A stretch of DNA of 64,000 bases, from contig NW_026570234.1 of assembly GCF_019649055.1 (NCBI RefSeq), positions 1 through 64,000 of the forward strand. Direction: 5' to 3'. The stretch's first letter is position 1. Every line of letters begins with the position of its first letter. The notes beneath the pieces are model-generated. The model saw only the letters and a program-made list of their open reading frames with translations. It made no database searches and was not told the DNA's origin. Below, one piece after another: positions 24,534-43,051 of the stretch. A program made the position numbers and the translations under genes. This stretch comes from Paramacrobiotus metropolitanus (taxonomy: Eukaryota; Tardigrada; Eutardigrada; Parachela; Macrobiotidae).

Positions 24534-25173
24534 ATGAGGGAATTACTAATCGCATTAGCTATTATTGGTATGTAAATTGTTTCCTTAAGAGAAATTAAAT
24601 CGAAAACTATATTCATTCATATGCCCAGTTCGATACAGTGGCGCTTTACACAATGGAATATTAATTACAGGCGCGGTTAGTGCCAGCGGATATGGCGGAG
24701 GCGGTTACGGAGGTGGCGGGGGTGGCTACGGTGGCGGTGGTTACGGAGGCTATGGAGGCGATATTTCCTTAATTGGGTAACAGCAGCATTACCGACAAAA
24801 CCGTACACTGATTTTTTATACTGCGCATTTGTACTAGCTATCCCATGCCATACTTTGGCTTTCCCTTCATGGGCTATCCCTTCTTCCCGGGTCTTTTTGG
24901 ACCGTGGGGTCTGGGATTTGGAGGATTTGGTGGTTTTGGATACGGCGGATTTGGAGGATATGGTGGCTTTTACGGTATGAAATACTCGTGCATACTTGTG
25001 TTTTAGCGGACTTTATTCCTTTGAAGCGATGCTGCTGCAATAATTTAAATAATTCAGGAGGCGGCGGTGGCTTTGGCGGCGGTGGTTACGGTGGTGGTGG
25101 CGGTGGTTATGGTGGCGGCGGCGGCGGTTACGGAGGTGGCGGTGGCATGGGAGGCTATGGCCGACGGAAATAA
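24534..25173 (+). CDS. Secreted glycine-rich protein 1
   Basis: Exons 24534-24567, 24671-24776, 24838-24974 and 25058-25173 join in frame to 130 residues. Signal peptide MRELLIALAIIGAVSA is followed by a GGYGGGG block, then a hydrophobic core rich in Pro, Phe, Tyr and Trp (YPMPYFGFPFMGYPFFPG, then GLFGPWG), then FGGFGYGGFGGYGG repeats and a second GGY block ending in GRRK. No cysteine. First of four tandem paralogs; all five members of this family in the window have a first exon ending in phase 1 after the signal-peptide core. Likely a structural, cuticular or adhesive secreted protein by composition; function not established. Confidence 0.85.
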
Positions 25174-26203
25174 ATCTTGCCGGCGCCCAGTTCTTGGATT
25201 GACTAATTGGAATCTCCTTTATGTGATAGAAAGTTAGCAACCCTTCTGCAGTGCACATAACCCATACCGTTGTTGTTACGTAATTTTAACATTGCATATA
25301 TATCAGTCACGCCCATTCTCCGCAGTGCTTGTGTACTTGTCATCCGTGTGGTCAGTCGTGGTGCGCTTACGGCGGAAACATTAATGTTTTCTTCTGGAGT
25401 GCGAAATGTTAGCATTCGATCTTTTGTTCTACTGGTTTAGAACTTCTTTTGAGAACTTTCGGGATACTTGTTTTGGCAACGTGCTGTACTGTAATTAATT
25501 TGCGATATGCTCCTGCCTAGCTGTAATTTTGCATTAATCGGTTCAATCGAGTCAGTGTCTAGTCTTTGAATTCGCAAATGCCATTTGTTCAGTTGTTCAT
25601 TTGTCTTTTCTTCCGTGATCGCGTTCCCAAATAAATTTGTGACTGTTATTCTTATGACTGCATACGACATGTGAAAGATACATCTAAATTACGTATACAT
25701 AAAAAACTGTCACTACAATATTACTGTCGACCCGAACTGCGCAACTGCAATACTTTTGCATAGACGTACTTGTACATACGTGGGCAATAGGACACGAAGT
25801 TTCTATAAGATTTTGGTTCTATATCAAATGCTCAAAATGCTAAAAATGAATCACTTACTGTTCAATTGAGACGTCGGCTACTACTAGACTTTGTTTTGTT
25901 TGGCAATATTGAATAACCGTGCCATAATTAATAAAACCTAGCGGTACGGTCATTTCAGTCAGTTTAAGAGCTGGTTAACCTAAAAGTGCGTTGACGCTAC
26001 CAGCTTGTTGGTGGGATTACTGATTGCAATTAACGAAAGTCCGAATCACAGTAAGGCCGCTTAACCAATTTAAATTTAACCTCTAGAAACAAATTAAAAA
26101 CCACTGTGCCTTCATTACATAATTCTTTCCAGTTTTTCAACAGGCGTGTCAGCCACTAATAGTTAATTTCTTCGTTTGAATTTTTCTGCTGATTTTATTA
26201 ACC
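25174..26203. other. Intergenic between glycine-rich genes 1 and 2
   Basis: No gene supported. Minus-strand open frames here (25203-25415 and 25437-25670) have no motif or splice context. Confidence 0.35.
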
Positions 26204-26726
26204 ATGACCTTTTCTAGAGTTATTGACACTTCTGTATACATCTTCTTCGCGCTGTCTCTATCGCTGCTCTTATTCGTATCTGGTCAGTCACAGAATTATG
26301 TAACAGATGCCTATTTATTCATAAGTCACATCAATTCAGTAAATGCAACTCAAAAATCTGGCATTATTTACAGGACTAGCATCTGCACAAGGATACTTTG
26401 GAGCAGGACGGAGTATTAGTGGATATGGGGGCGGATACGGGGGAGGTTCAGGAGGTTATGGCGGTGGATCTGGAGGTTATGGCGGTGGATCTGGAGGTTA
26501 CGGCGGAGGGTCGAGTGGCGGTTACGGTGGGGGTGCAGGTGGCGCAACAGGCAGCACCGACAGACTAGACTGGAGTCCGGATTTACTGGCGGGGTTTCCC
26601 ATCATGGGAGGACTGTATCCGGCTGTTGGCTATCCATTCTGGCCGGCTGCTTTTGGTTTTGGATGGCCGTTTATTTTCGGCGGTTATGGAGGCGTACACG
26701 GATTTTACGGTGCCCAGGGATACTAA
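26204..26726 (+). CDS. Secreted glycine-rich protein 2
   Basis: Preferred model: exon 26204-26282 (donor GTCAGT) and exon 26374-26726 give 143 residues with signal peptide core YIFFALSLSLLLFVSG then LASAQ. A one-exon alternative starts at ATG 26343 in the same frame and gives 127 residues with a weaker signal; the two-exon form also matches the phase-1 first exon of the paralogs. The mature protein has about five GGYGGGS units, a linker GSTDRLDWSPDLLAG, a hydrophobic core (GYPFWPAAFGFGWPFIFG) and a short GGY end. The order GGY block then Pro/Trp/Phe core matches protein 1. Secretion is well supported, function unknown. Confidence 0.8.
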
Positions 26727-39356: not shown

Positions 39357-39875
39357 TTAAAACAACTTCTCGGGTGACTTTTCGCTTTTCTCCTTGACGA
39401 AGTTAAAGAAATACTGCACGTTGTCGAATGTATTCCTGATGCGTTGGTTCGTCTGTGCATTGTGCGATCTCATTTCCAGTTTGAACTCAATCTTTTCTGT
39501 CACCACATCCCCTATGTCGAGCCCATTGGCATTCAATGGATCGCAAAACGAGACTGCGAATGAAGGAGGTCCTGGGTTTCGTTTGTCAACGAATGCTTTG
39601 GTAGATTGCTTGACGTGCTGGTCCAAAAGCATTCGTTGCTCGTCCAGATTCCTTCTCTGCTTGGCCATGGCAAACTCCAGACTGTCTTTCACTCGGCCCA
39701 CAATCTTTTCTGGATAACTCGCGGTGGTATTATGCAGTTTTGATATTCGGGATTTTTGGTCCGTTAGCAACGCATTGTGGTACTGGCTGTTCAGAGTGAA
39801 ATTCGATGTGATAGAAAGATTGGTGTCAGCCAGCGAACTGGATGCGACGTTACTAACCGAAGCGGATGCTGCCAT
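39357..39875 (-). CDS. Unrecognised intronless protein, 172 aa
   Basis: One open frame from ATG 39873-39875 to a stop at 39357-39359. The frame extends upstream to tandem TAA codons without another ATG. No signal peptide or membrane segment. The N-terminal 40 residues are Ser/Ala-rich; the middle is charged and helical (VGRVKDSLEFAMAKQRRNLD), and the C-terminal part (FDNVQYFFNFVKEKSEK) also looks helical. Codon use looks like that of neighbouring real exons, which supports coding. I do not recognise the family. It could be a lineage-specific coiled-coil protein or a retrocopy of a spliced gene. Confidence 0.5.
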   Translation of the reverse strand: MAASASVSNVASSSLADTNLSITSNFTLNSQYHNALLTDQKSRISKLHNTTASYPEKIVGRVKDSLEFAMAKQRRNLDEQRMLLDQHVKQSTKAFVDKRNPGPPSFAVSFCDPLNANGLDIGDVVTEKIEFKLEMRSHNAQTNQRIRNTFDNVQYFFNFVKEKSEKSPEKLF

Positions 39876-40125: not shown

Positions 40126-40249
40126 GGCGGCATCCATAAATTACGTAATACGGGGTGGGGAAGGAGGGGGTGCCCAAAAGCGTTATTTGCCTATTATCGA
40201 TATTAGCAAAAGCGCGATTTTTGGCGTTACTTAATTCATGAATGTCGCC
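40126..40249. mobile_element. Short MITE, PIF/Harbinger-like by 3-bp TTA duplication
   Basis: A 124-bp element with imperfect terminal inverted repeats: 19 of the first 23 bases match between GGCGGCATCCATAAATTACG at the left end and the reverse complement of the right end. It is flanked by TTA at 40123-40125 and 40250-40252. A TWA target duplication is typical of PIF/Harbinger elements. No coding capacity. The family assignment rests on target size only. Confidence 0.5.
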
Positions 40250-40665
40250 TTACGCGGGGCAGCGGACTGACGGTGAGTGAAGTACATACTTTATACTTGC
40301 TCCGTCAATACGTACTGTACAATGGACGACAAAATCAACTTAACCTCGGGGCTCGGAACCGGTTTTGTGGCTTTAGTCATGTGTGCAAGTGAACGAGAGA
40401 ACAGAGAGAACACGGCTGCCGCGCTTTAATACTGCTCAGTGAACGGATTCAGCGATAGATATGCGGCGCACATTCATCGTATGCGCTGTAACTCGACAGC
40501 GGCTAACGGTCCGGAGTTAAACAAATTTTGTCGTCCGTTGTATGTACTGTAAGCCCTATCAGCCTCTCTCGCTACTAAAAACGGAAGAAAAGCTTCGTGT
40601 TCTAGCGCTGTCTTAAAATTTCGATTTTTGCACTCTTTTTTTTTGTTGCAGCTTCCAGTATCCAA

Positions 40666-41619
40666 ATGTTGTCTGGAATGGAACATAACTACCAGAAACG
40701 TCTGTCTGCCCTGCCGGTCACCCGAGAAGGTCTCAAGCAGCAGTGTGACATGATCCGTGAGAGAATCAGCCAAATCCAGCAAAAGGACTCAGTGACCACG
40801 AAACCTCCGGGTCCTACTGACCGTCGTTCTTTAAAGGAAATGTTCGCGGAACTTCGGAATTCTGACAGATTTAAGAAGGGCGTCGGTCTATACCTTTGCG
40901 ATGATACGATTGAGTCACTACAAGCCTCATTGGATGGAGTCACGGTCGGAGCAACGGTCAATGTCAAGCAGGAAGAAGGCGATCGGCTTCCGTTAACGTT
41001 TGGGTATGTTGGGCTCCTGGCGACCTACGATGCCCAGTGTGCCGTCGATTTGGTTGACTTCTACAAGAAAACCCGTAATGTGAATTATGACCCGACGTTT
41101 ATCGACAGCGCGGTGATCGCATATCCACGCTCGGACTGTCATGTTTCAGTATTCAGCAATGGAAAAATGGTCATCAACGGAGTCACGAATACCAGCGAAG
41201 CACTGGTGGCCAGTAGAAATTCCGTGGAATTGCTGAAGCAGTGCGGCTATAATCCTGTTCTCCGCAAAGAGAATCTGCGTGTCCATAATGTCTCTGGGAT
41301 GTTAAACTTGAACTCGCAGGTGGATATTCTCGGATTTCATGAGGCCTATCCGCGATGCACGTACTACTCCGAGGTGTTCTGCGCGGTTTCTTATAGGCCG
41401 GCCACGAAGACGGACCAGATAAATTTGGATAAGTCATTGGGTGTATGCTGTCAGATATTTGCCACCGGAAAGATTTTGATTGTCGGCCATAAAGATGAGA
41501 GAGATATAAACGACTTCCTGGTGGAACTCTACGACATCCTGGAGCCCTTTATTGGTGCAGGCAACAACCCAGACGGGCCAGACGCAGACGATCGCGATAA
41601 AGGATCTATGAAACAGTGA
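40666..41619 (+). CDS. Highly divergent TBP-family (TATA-binding protein-like) factor
   Basis: A 317-residue frame from ATG 40666 to a stop at 41619. A TBP-type two-repeat saddle spans about residues 108-296, after an N-terminal region of about 105 residues unlike TBP. Repeat 1 ends with VSVFSNGKMVINGV, matching TBP's IFSSGKMVCTGA. Repeat 2 runs from LRVHNVSGMLNL to CQIFATGKILIVGH, then a last helix FLVELYDIL. TYYSEVFCAVSY aligns with TBP's YEPELFPGLIY. The four positions of TBP's DNA-intercalating phenylalanines are all Phe (about 145, 163, 238, 265). Repeat 2 has an insertion (about 245-258). A splice acceptor sits just upstream at 40650-40651. An ATG at 40322 with donor GTGAAC would add an N-terminal exon in frame. 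The TBP fold is well supported; whether it acts at promoters is inference. Confidence 0.78.
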   Translation: MLSGMEHNYQKRLSALPVTREGLKQQCDMIRERISQIQQKDSVTTKPPGPTDRRSLKEMFAELRNSDRFKKGVGLYLCDDTIESLQASLDGVTVGATVNVKQEEGDRLPLTFGYVGLLATYDAQCAVDLVDFYKKTRNVNYDPTFIDSAVIAYPRSDCHVSVFSNGKMVINGVTNTSEALVASRNSVELLKQCGYNPVLRKENLRVHNVSGMLNLNSQVDILGFHEAYPRCTYYSEVFCAVSYRPATKTDQINLDKSLGVCCQIFATGKILIVGHKDERDINDFLVELYDILEPFIGAGNNPDGPDADDRDKGSMKQ

Positions 41620-42365
41620 TCTTGCATTAATCCCAGCTGTAAGGAATTTTTGAGTCTGTTAAGGAATTTCTTACGCACTTGACATGAAGAATCTACTGTA
41701 ACGCTTCTCTTTAAATTGCAGTTCTCCTTGTTTTAGTGCTGCTTTAGTTTAGAAGGTTTTTTTTCTGTTTGTGCACTTTCTTGATGAATCACTCATTTTA
41801 TTGTAGCATTTTTTTAACAGAATTATTACCGCTACAGTATCTCTAATATGGCGCGCATTTTCTGGTGAGCTTTTGTGGAAATCCTTTGTCGGAGAGCTGT
41901 TTTTGATATGTGCTGTAACACTGCTGTTCAGTTTGTTTGCCGTATGGTGACCTCTTTCCTTGCATTACAATAGAATTGGACAATTAGCTAATGGTTGGTA
42001 AAAATTAATAAAATCGGAATATTAAAAAACATTTGCTAGCTTTAATTAGGTAGTTTTGTGCATCTCTTTTAATTATTATTATTATCGCACAGGAGCAGAC
42101 ATCCCATTCAAATGGGACTTGTCACTTGTGCAACGTTATAGAACACTGCTGTCTGGTCCACAAAGCTACCCACGAACATTAATTAACCAGGTTACCAGCT
42201 CAAAAACCTTAACCAGCCTGTTTACCCAGGTCAACCATTTTTAACGCAAACTGAAAAAGTCAACAGGTTCCGCATTTAAAACATTCACATTAACCTTTTG
42301 GGTACACCAGAACAGTTCTTTCATTCTCACGGCAAACATGGATTCTCCGATCTTTTGGCTGCCTT
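41620..42365. other. 3' flank of TBP-like gene
   Basis: AATAAA at 42007-42012 is a candidate poly(A) signal. No coding exon. The right end directly abuts the hAT-like insertion. Confidence 0.35.
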
Positions 42366-42945: not shown

Positions 42946-43051
42946 TGCACAGAGTGGGATTTGAACCCACGCACCCATTCGAGTACCAGAAGTCCCCAGG
43001 AAGACAATCAAGTCTTGAGTCTGGCGCCTTGGACCGCTCGGCCATCTGTGC
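42946..43051 (-). tRNA. tRNA-Leu (anticodon CAA) with intron
   Basis: On the minus strand the acceptor stem GCACAGA pairs with TCTGTGC, followed by discriminator A. Box A reads TGGCCGAGCGG; box B/T-loop reads GTGGGTTCAAATCCCAC. The anticodon arm CCAGA-CTCAAG carries CAA. An intron of about 21 nt follows the anticodon before the 3' half of the stem (TTCTGG), as is standard for eukaryotic tRNA-Leu(CAA). A class II variable arm is present. T-runs just downstream on the minus strand (TTTTTT at about 42936-42941) fit Pol III termination. Confidence 0.93.

Follow-up and report, generated by a model that had tools for sequence, protein, structure and literature searches.

A divergent TBP-family protein with partly kept DNA-bending residues in the tardigrade Paramacrobiotus metropolitanus

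Identification of a TBP-family saddle protein

The stretch of Paramacrobiotus metropolitanus (Tardigrada) DNA analyzed here comprises positions 1 to 64,000 of contig NW_026570234.1 (assembly GCF_019649055.1), and this entire 64,000-nucleotide stretch is referred to below as the window. It contains an uninterrupted reading frame of 317 codons (40666-41619, forward strand), the product of which is almost certainly a TBP-family saddle protein. The identification of this protein as a divergent TBP paralog is well supported, and it is probably a fast-evolving nuclear paralog, perhaps a lineage-specific one, with partly kept DNA-bending equipment and an altered choice of promoters and partners. The gene is divided as follows:

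40666-41619, forward strand: main open reading frame (ORF) of the TBP-family protein, 317 amino acids plus stop, with ATG at 40666 and a second Met at residue 5
40666-40980, forward strand: N-terminal region, residues 1-105, with coding-like codons and no match in Pfam or the PDB
41014-41244, forward strand: TBP repeat 1, residues 117-193, from Pfam
41278-41553, forward strand: TBP repeat 2, approximately residues 205-296, from the PDB phmmer alignments and those of our own hidden Markov model (HMM)

The sole Pfam family matched by the protein was TBP (PF00352; 82.8 bits against a cut-off of 22.9, E = 1.6e-23), in two stretches, the best of which covers residues 117-193. Our own HMM was built from 13 TBP-family sequences (three eukaryotic TBPs, two TLFs and 8 of 19 loci), which were reused as comparison rows for the tree and the column counts; it aligned through residues 119-293 (73 bits, E = 1.5e-21). 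When all stop-to-stop segments of at least 25 amino acids in the six frames of the window were scanned with this model, nothing else was convincing (runner-up E = 0.81), and thus no second TBP was found in the window. With an E limit of 10, phmmer listed 39 PDB sequences; the top 35 were TBPs or TBP-holding fusions (4.1e-11 to 2.6e-4), and the bottom four (E = 0.73 and worse) look like chance matches. The original prediction, made from the sequence letters, had proposed a two-repeat TBP-like protein with the motifs FSNGKMVINGV and FATGKILIVGH, and both the repeats and the motifs were found; the lack of a TBP-family HMM match had been named beforehand as refuting the idea, which survives this check. 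The additional N-terminal region of approximately 105 residues is also present; neither Pfam nor, at E up to 10, the PDB gave a match to it.

The codon usage of the frame is coding-like, with a mean log-odds of 0.205 in the N-terminal region, 0.133 in the core and 0.298 in the tail, according to a score trained on six open segments of the window (five of them with a Pfam match). On the opposite strand the score was negative, as it was over the N-terminal region and the core in the two other forward frames.

An AlphaFold2 model of the core (residues 103-317) was built with alignment A4 of 17 archaeal TBPs and reached a predicted local distance difference test score (pLDDT) of 80.8 and a predicted template modelling (TM) score of 0.69. 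Alignments A2 and A4 use 17 of the 19 loci, with L010 and L019 left out. A Foldseek search with this model found 44 PDB chains at E<=0.001, all of them TBP or TBP-holding complexes as judged by their titles and by phmmer, and the highest target-normalised TM score of this archaeal-alignment model was 0.93, to human TBP-DNA (1cdw). The model therefore predicts the saddle fold of the TBP family, and the proposal of a divergent TBP-family paralog stands after both the HMM and the fold checks.

Three wedge phenylalanines in register

Wedge positions are given here in the numbering of the 339-residue human chain, in which we take F197, F214, F288 and F305 to be the residues elsewhere called Phe193, Phe210, Phe284 and Phe301. 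TBP is reported to kink DNA by means of two Phe pairs, Phe193/210 and Phe284/301 (PMC3142196). The residues at or near these positions in the tardigrade protein are:

41098-41103, forward strand: F145 and I146, with I146 in the first wedge column (human F197) and F145 one residue early
41152-41154, forward strand: F163, in register with human F214 by HMM alignments and residue mapping
41377-41379, forward strand: F238, in register with human F288 by the same evidence
41458-41460, forward strand: F265, in register with human F305 by the same evidence

As aligned, three of the four wedge phenylalanines are thus in register, one in the N-terminal lobe (F163) and two in the C-terminal lobe (F238 and F265). 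Ile146 fell in the first Phe column in every alignment made, and its placement was the same across four HMM alignments (all 13 rows, eukaryotic TBP, TLF and archaeal). The alignment to the eukaryotic TBPs is gap-free from a conserved Tyr through the first wedge column to the second Phe, and the interval from F145 to F163 is 18 residues, compared with 17 for the same interval in the three eukaryotic TBPs. The first wedge column therefore most likely holds Ile146 rather than F145. Small indels do occur around this column: both TLFs have a one-residue deletion directly before it, and the loop after it is one residue shorter in 4 of the 17 archaeal rows (L004, L006, L008 and L011). For this reason, a place for F145 in the wedge is possible but unlikely. 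For four Phe to be in register, one residue would have to be deleted ahead of the column and one inserted behind it; such an alignment was judged unlikely. Phe is present at residues 145, 163, 238 and 265, as had been described, but one of the four most likely falls outside the wedge, contrary to the claim that all of the kinking phenylalanines are kept. The Gly-Lys pair after each S3 Phe is kept.

Paralog, main TBP or TLF ortholog

The core of the protein is 21.5-23.6% identical to the three eukaryotic TBPs (21.5% to human TBP) and 17.1-23.6% identical over all 13 rows, in agreement with the little identity noted originally. An identity of 21.5% to human TBP would have no known precedent among animal TBPs. 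The TBP core is reported to be 80% identical between yeast and human (PMC3142196), and the protein departs from this conservation to such an extent that a paralog is the simplest reading. Its identity is also far from the core identity to TBP given for TRF1 and TBPL2 (63% and 95%, respectively). In phmmer comparisons with the protein, the eukaryotic TBPs scored 36.8-45.2 bits, L001 38.6, the two TLFs 26.3 and 28.7, six other archaeal rows 19.7-25.3 and L016 7.5.

It is highly likely that the protein is not the main TBP of the organism. An extremely diverged main TBP would agree with the absence of a second TBP from the window, but this is very improbable given the low identity to human TBP and the good conservation of alpha-catenin, which is also encoded in the window. 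The latter scores 593 bits to vertebrate catenin alpha-1, and fragments of like length give 341-380 bits to vertebrate catenin alpha-1 compared with 261 to C. elegans HMP-1. At least alpha-catenin is therefore not evolving unusually fast, which favors a fast paralog over a fast main TBP.

The protein might alternatively be a diverged ortholog of TLF/TRF2 (TBPL1), which would be TATA-independent and work through TFIIA; we regard this as unlikely, although several observations point towards it. TLF is described as present in all metazoans and as fast-evolving, with 40-45% identity among animals (PMC3142196). Among 29 columns that divide the three TBPs from the two TLFs, the protein agrees with the TBPs in 8, with the TLFs in 6 and with neither in 15; as the TBP states may be ancestral, the six TLF states count for a TLF origin as would-be shared derived characters (e.g., T for S right after the last wedge Phe). 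In a tree that kept 171 of 328 columns, a clade of the protein with TLF had a p value of 0.488 in the approximately unbiased (AU) test and a clade with TBP one of 0.335, so that neither was rejected, with only two TLF rows; the end branch of the protein amounted to 6.67 changes per column. On the other side, the two TLFs carry His at the F288 position in addition to the deletion before the first wedge column, whereas the protein has Phe there and, as aligned, no deletion. TLF is reported to have Trp at the F214 position (PMC7221094), where the protein has Phe163, and TRF2 to have lost an intercalating Phe (PMC10005294). Moreover, the TLF model gave the protein a lower score (38.4 bits) than the eukaryotic TBP (49.1 bits) and archaeal (56.9 bits) models, which are of unequal make-up, and the TFIIA positions are mostly changed. 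When TBPL1 was searched against the PDB, none of the 35 matched sequences was named TLF, TBPL1 or TRF2.

No relatives emerged when viral contigs were scanned with the protein, A1, A3 or the L016 protein. In the literature titles surveyed, no TBP paralog like this one appeared, and no paper pairing 'TBP-like' with 'tardigrade' was found.

DNA groove, stirrup and partner surfaces

Several observations weigh against a paralog that still bends DNA. The reading as a paralog draws on the divergence of the protein. The archaeal TBPs used as alignment input bias the core model towards the TBP fold, so that the Pfam sequence match is the independent support for this fold, and a single-sequence AlphaFold2 model of the full protein was unusable (pLDDT 32.9). 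Of 14 residues that line the groove according to the TBP-DNA literature, only five (F163, V169, N208, F238 and F265) are identical to human TBP. At four positions the change is mild (human V169 to L118, F197 to I146, V311 to L271 and T313 to V273), and at five the new residue is an unlike one (human N167 to G116, L212 to S161, T222 to N171, V259 to S210 and L303 to Q263). Judged from these residues, the protein may no longer bind DNA, or may bind it in quite another way. At the human positions E284, E286 and L287, which contact TFIIB, the protein has Y234, E236 and V237 (two of three changed), and three of the four TFIIA positions are changed, with N138 kept. TBP paralogs are reported to retain the signature positions for the most part (PMC7221094); the tardigrade protein does not.

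Alternatively, the protein might be a TBP-derived decoy or scaffold that has ceased to bind DNA or promoters and sequesters TBP partners, or a protein heading for loss. The 9 of 14 changed groove residues, five of them to unlike residues, and the long end branch speak for such a protein. However, its frame of 317 codons is unbroken and its codon usage coding-like, and the three wedge Phe and the Gly-Lys pair after each S3 Phe are kept, which is disfavored under unconstrained decay; we consider a decoy or decaying protein quite unlikely. Human TBPL1 keeps 6 of the 14 groove residues, with just one of the four Phe among them; thus, the groove of the tardigrade protein is about as eroded as that of TLF, but differently.

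The expected insertion in repeat 2 was borne out, with a length of approximately 10 residues:

41404-41433, forward strand: insert that lengthens the C-terminal stirrup loop, between S2' and S3', by approximately 10 residues, its exact ends depending on the alignment

This insert may bear on partner choice. We match E146 of Arabidopsis TBP2 to human E286, the position of E236 in the protein. This second Glu is described as the most important one for the TFIIB contact, and 4 of 8 TFIIB-contact residues are located in the C-terminal stirrup, according to PMC10005294.

A possible role in transcription

Whether the protein bends DNA is, in our estimate, an evenly balanced question. If the paralog proposed above is real, its saddle would stay in the minor groove and kink DNA, firmly at the side of the C-terminal lobe (F238/F265) and more weakly at that of the N-terminal lobe (F163/I146). 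Its target sites would be less TATA-like than those of TBP, as the changed groove is unlikely to prefer TATA. A TFIIB-type partner could be recruited through an altered surface, in which E236 is kept, the neighboring Glu is lost and the stirrup is longer, and a restricted set of genes might be transcribed, by analogy with TRF1, TRF2/TLF and TBPL2. A more far-reaching proposal, which we put forward tentatively and hold to be rather doubtful, is a separate animal TBP subfamily, distinct from TBP, TRF1, TLF and TBPL2, that combines asymmetric bending at a non-TATA core-promoter element with a different TFIIB- or TAF-type partner contacted through the stirrup insert and the N-terminus.

One source of variation in the otherwise nearly fixed core initiation machine of animals is the paralogs of TBP. 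If the proposed role is true, the protein would show how far the saddle can change with DNA bending retained, and so distant a paralog with most of the wedge residues would point to a distinct class of promoters.

Gene structure and genomic neighborhood

The start of the gene had been placed at the ATG at 40322, and this was not upheld. The following features lie around the ORF:

40242-40272, forward strand: putative first exon with ATG 40242 (MSPYAGQRTD...), or the last part of a 5' exon that does not code
40273-40651, forward strand: probable intron, with donor ACG/GTGAGTG and acceptor TTGCAG/CT identified by eye (slash, splice site); phase 1 if the upstream exon codes
40318-40349, forward strand: left arm of an imperfect inverted repeat, holding ATG 40322
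40511-40542, reverse strand: right arm of the imperfect inverted repeat, 78% complementary to the left arm
42007-42012, forward strand: AATAAA, a possible poly(A) signal approximately 390 bases past the stop (one of 144 occurrences of this hexamer in the window)

The frame of ATG 40322 ends after 35 codons, and a splice is required to join it to the TBP frame. By eye, the donor nearest to the consensus, at 40273, lies upstream of this ATG, and the acceptor ends at 40651; therefore, 40273-40651 is read as a 5' intron, and translation probably starts at 40242 or 40666. As a start, ATG 40322 was judged unlikely, being non-contiguous with the ORF and located inside both the probable intron and an inverted-repeat arm, although an exon there may exist through one of three downstream donors that keep the frame (40362, 40383 and 40389). 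The codon score does not decide the choice of start, as 22 codons read from 40322 and 10 read from 40242 gave the same value (0.087).

The arms of the inverted repeat are 32 nt long and 161 nt apart, and no further copy was found within the window. Folded as single-stranded DNA, the repeat was weakly better than shuffles (z = -1.60, with 11 of 200 shuffles equally good). We suggest a resemblance to a small transposable element.

The coding part is nearly intronless, as had been stated, but this is not special, as open stretches of approximately 1.2-1.4 kb also occur in the neighboring Sec3 and alpha-catenin genes. As a sign of a retrocopy, the intronless coding part is consequently uninformative, and inspection of the sequence directly past the stop revealed no poly(A) tract.

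The gene content marks the window as nuclear DNA of an animal: besides alpha-catenin and Sec3, it harbors genes for an MCM, FUT8, a galactosyltransferase and a methyltransferase and an EF-hand gene. An ORF of approximately 170 amino acids (39360-39872, reverse strand) is divergent to the TBP-like gene and may share its promoter region; it had no Pfam match, and its PDB match (E = 0.5) did not exceed the level of chance. A tRNA gene (42946-43051, reverse strand; Rfam, 52.3 bits) was missed by ARAGORN in bacterial mode and, with a length of 106 bases, probably contains an intron. On visual inspection, the segment 42364-42775 resembles a mobile element: GGGCGCA words recur in it, and its ends are nearly inverted (GGGCCGTAGCGAGG ... 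CCTCGCTACGGCCC). Short Gly/Tyr-rich (GYGGG) ORFs were observed within 24838-26723, at 24838-25170 and 26343-26723, and the latter had no Pfam match.

Comparison with known systems

The TBP core (TBP/SPT15; human, E. cuniculi and the TBP of 7z7n) shares with the tardigrade protein the two-repeat saddle, F163, F238 and F265 in register, a gap-free repeat 1 and a Glu (E236) at the more important of the TFIIB-contact positions. The protein differs in its identity of 21.5-23.6%, the Ile at the first wedge position, changes at 9 of the 14 residues lining the groove, the stirrup insert of approximately 10 residues and an N-terminal region without matches in Pfam or the PDB. Giant-virus TBP-like proteins also have a diverged TBP saddle, but their fold match is weaker than that to cellular TBP (best E = 4.7e-12 in BFVD compared with 2.4e-16 in the PDB, the two libraries being different).

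A TBP that likewise has a long C-terminal stirrup insert was observed at 1501-2028 of L016, on a contig filed as a bacterial Opitutaceae metagenome-assembled genome that is probably a misbinned eukaryote or large virus; yet it scored, as given above, only 7.5 bits with the tardigrade protein.

TLF/TRF2/TBPL1 resembles the protein in being an animal relative of TBP and in the erosion of its TATA groove, and the TLF state is shared in 6 of 29 columns; however, the protein has Phe where TLF has Trp and His, and the TLF deletions are absent as aligned. A figure legend of PMC3142196 also mentions a Ciona 'TBP-like' protein. TRF1 of insects and TBPL2/TRF3 of vertebrates provide precedents for lineage-restricted paralogs with their own promoter choice, from which the tardigrade protein, at only 21.5% identity to human TBP, stands apart in the extent of its divergence.
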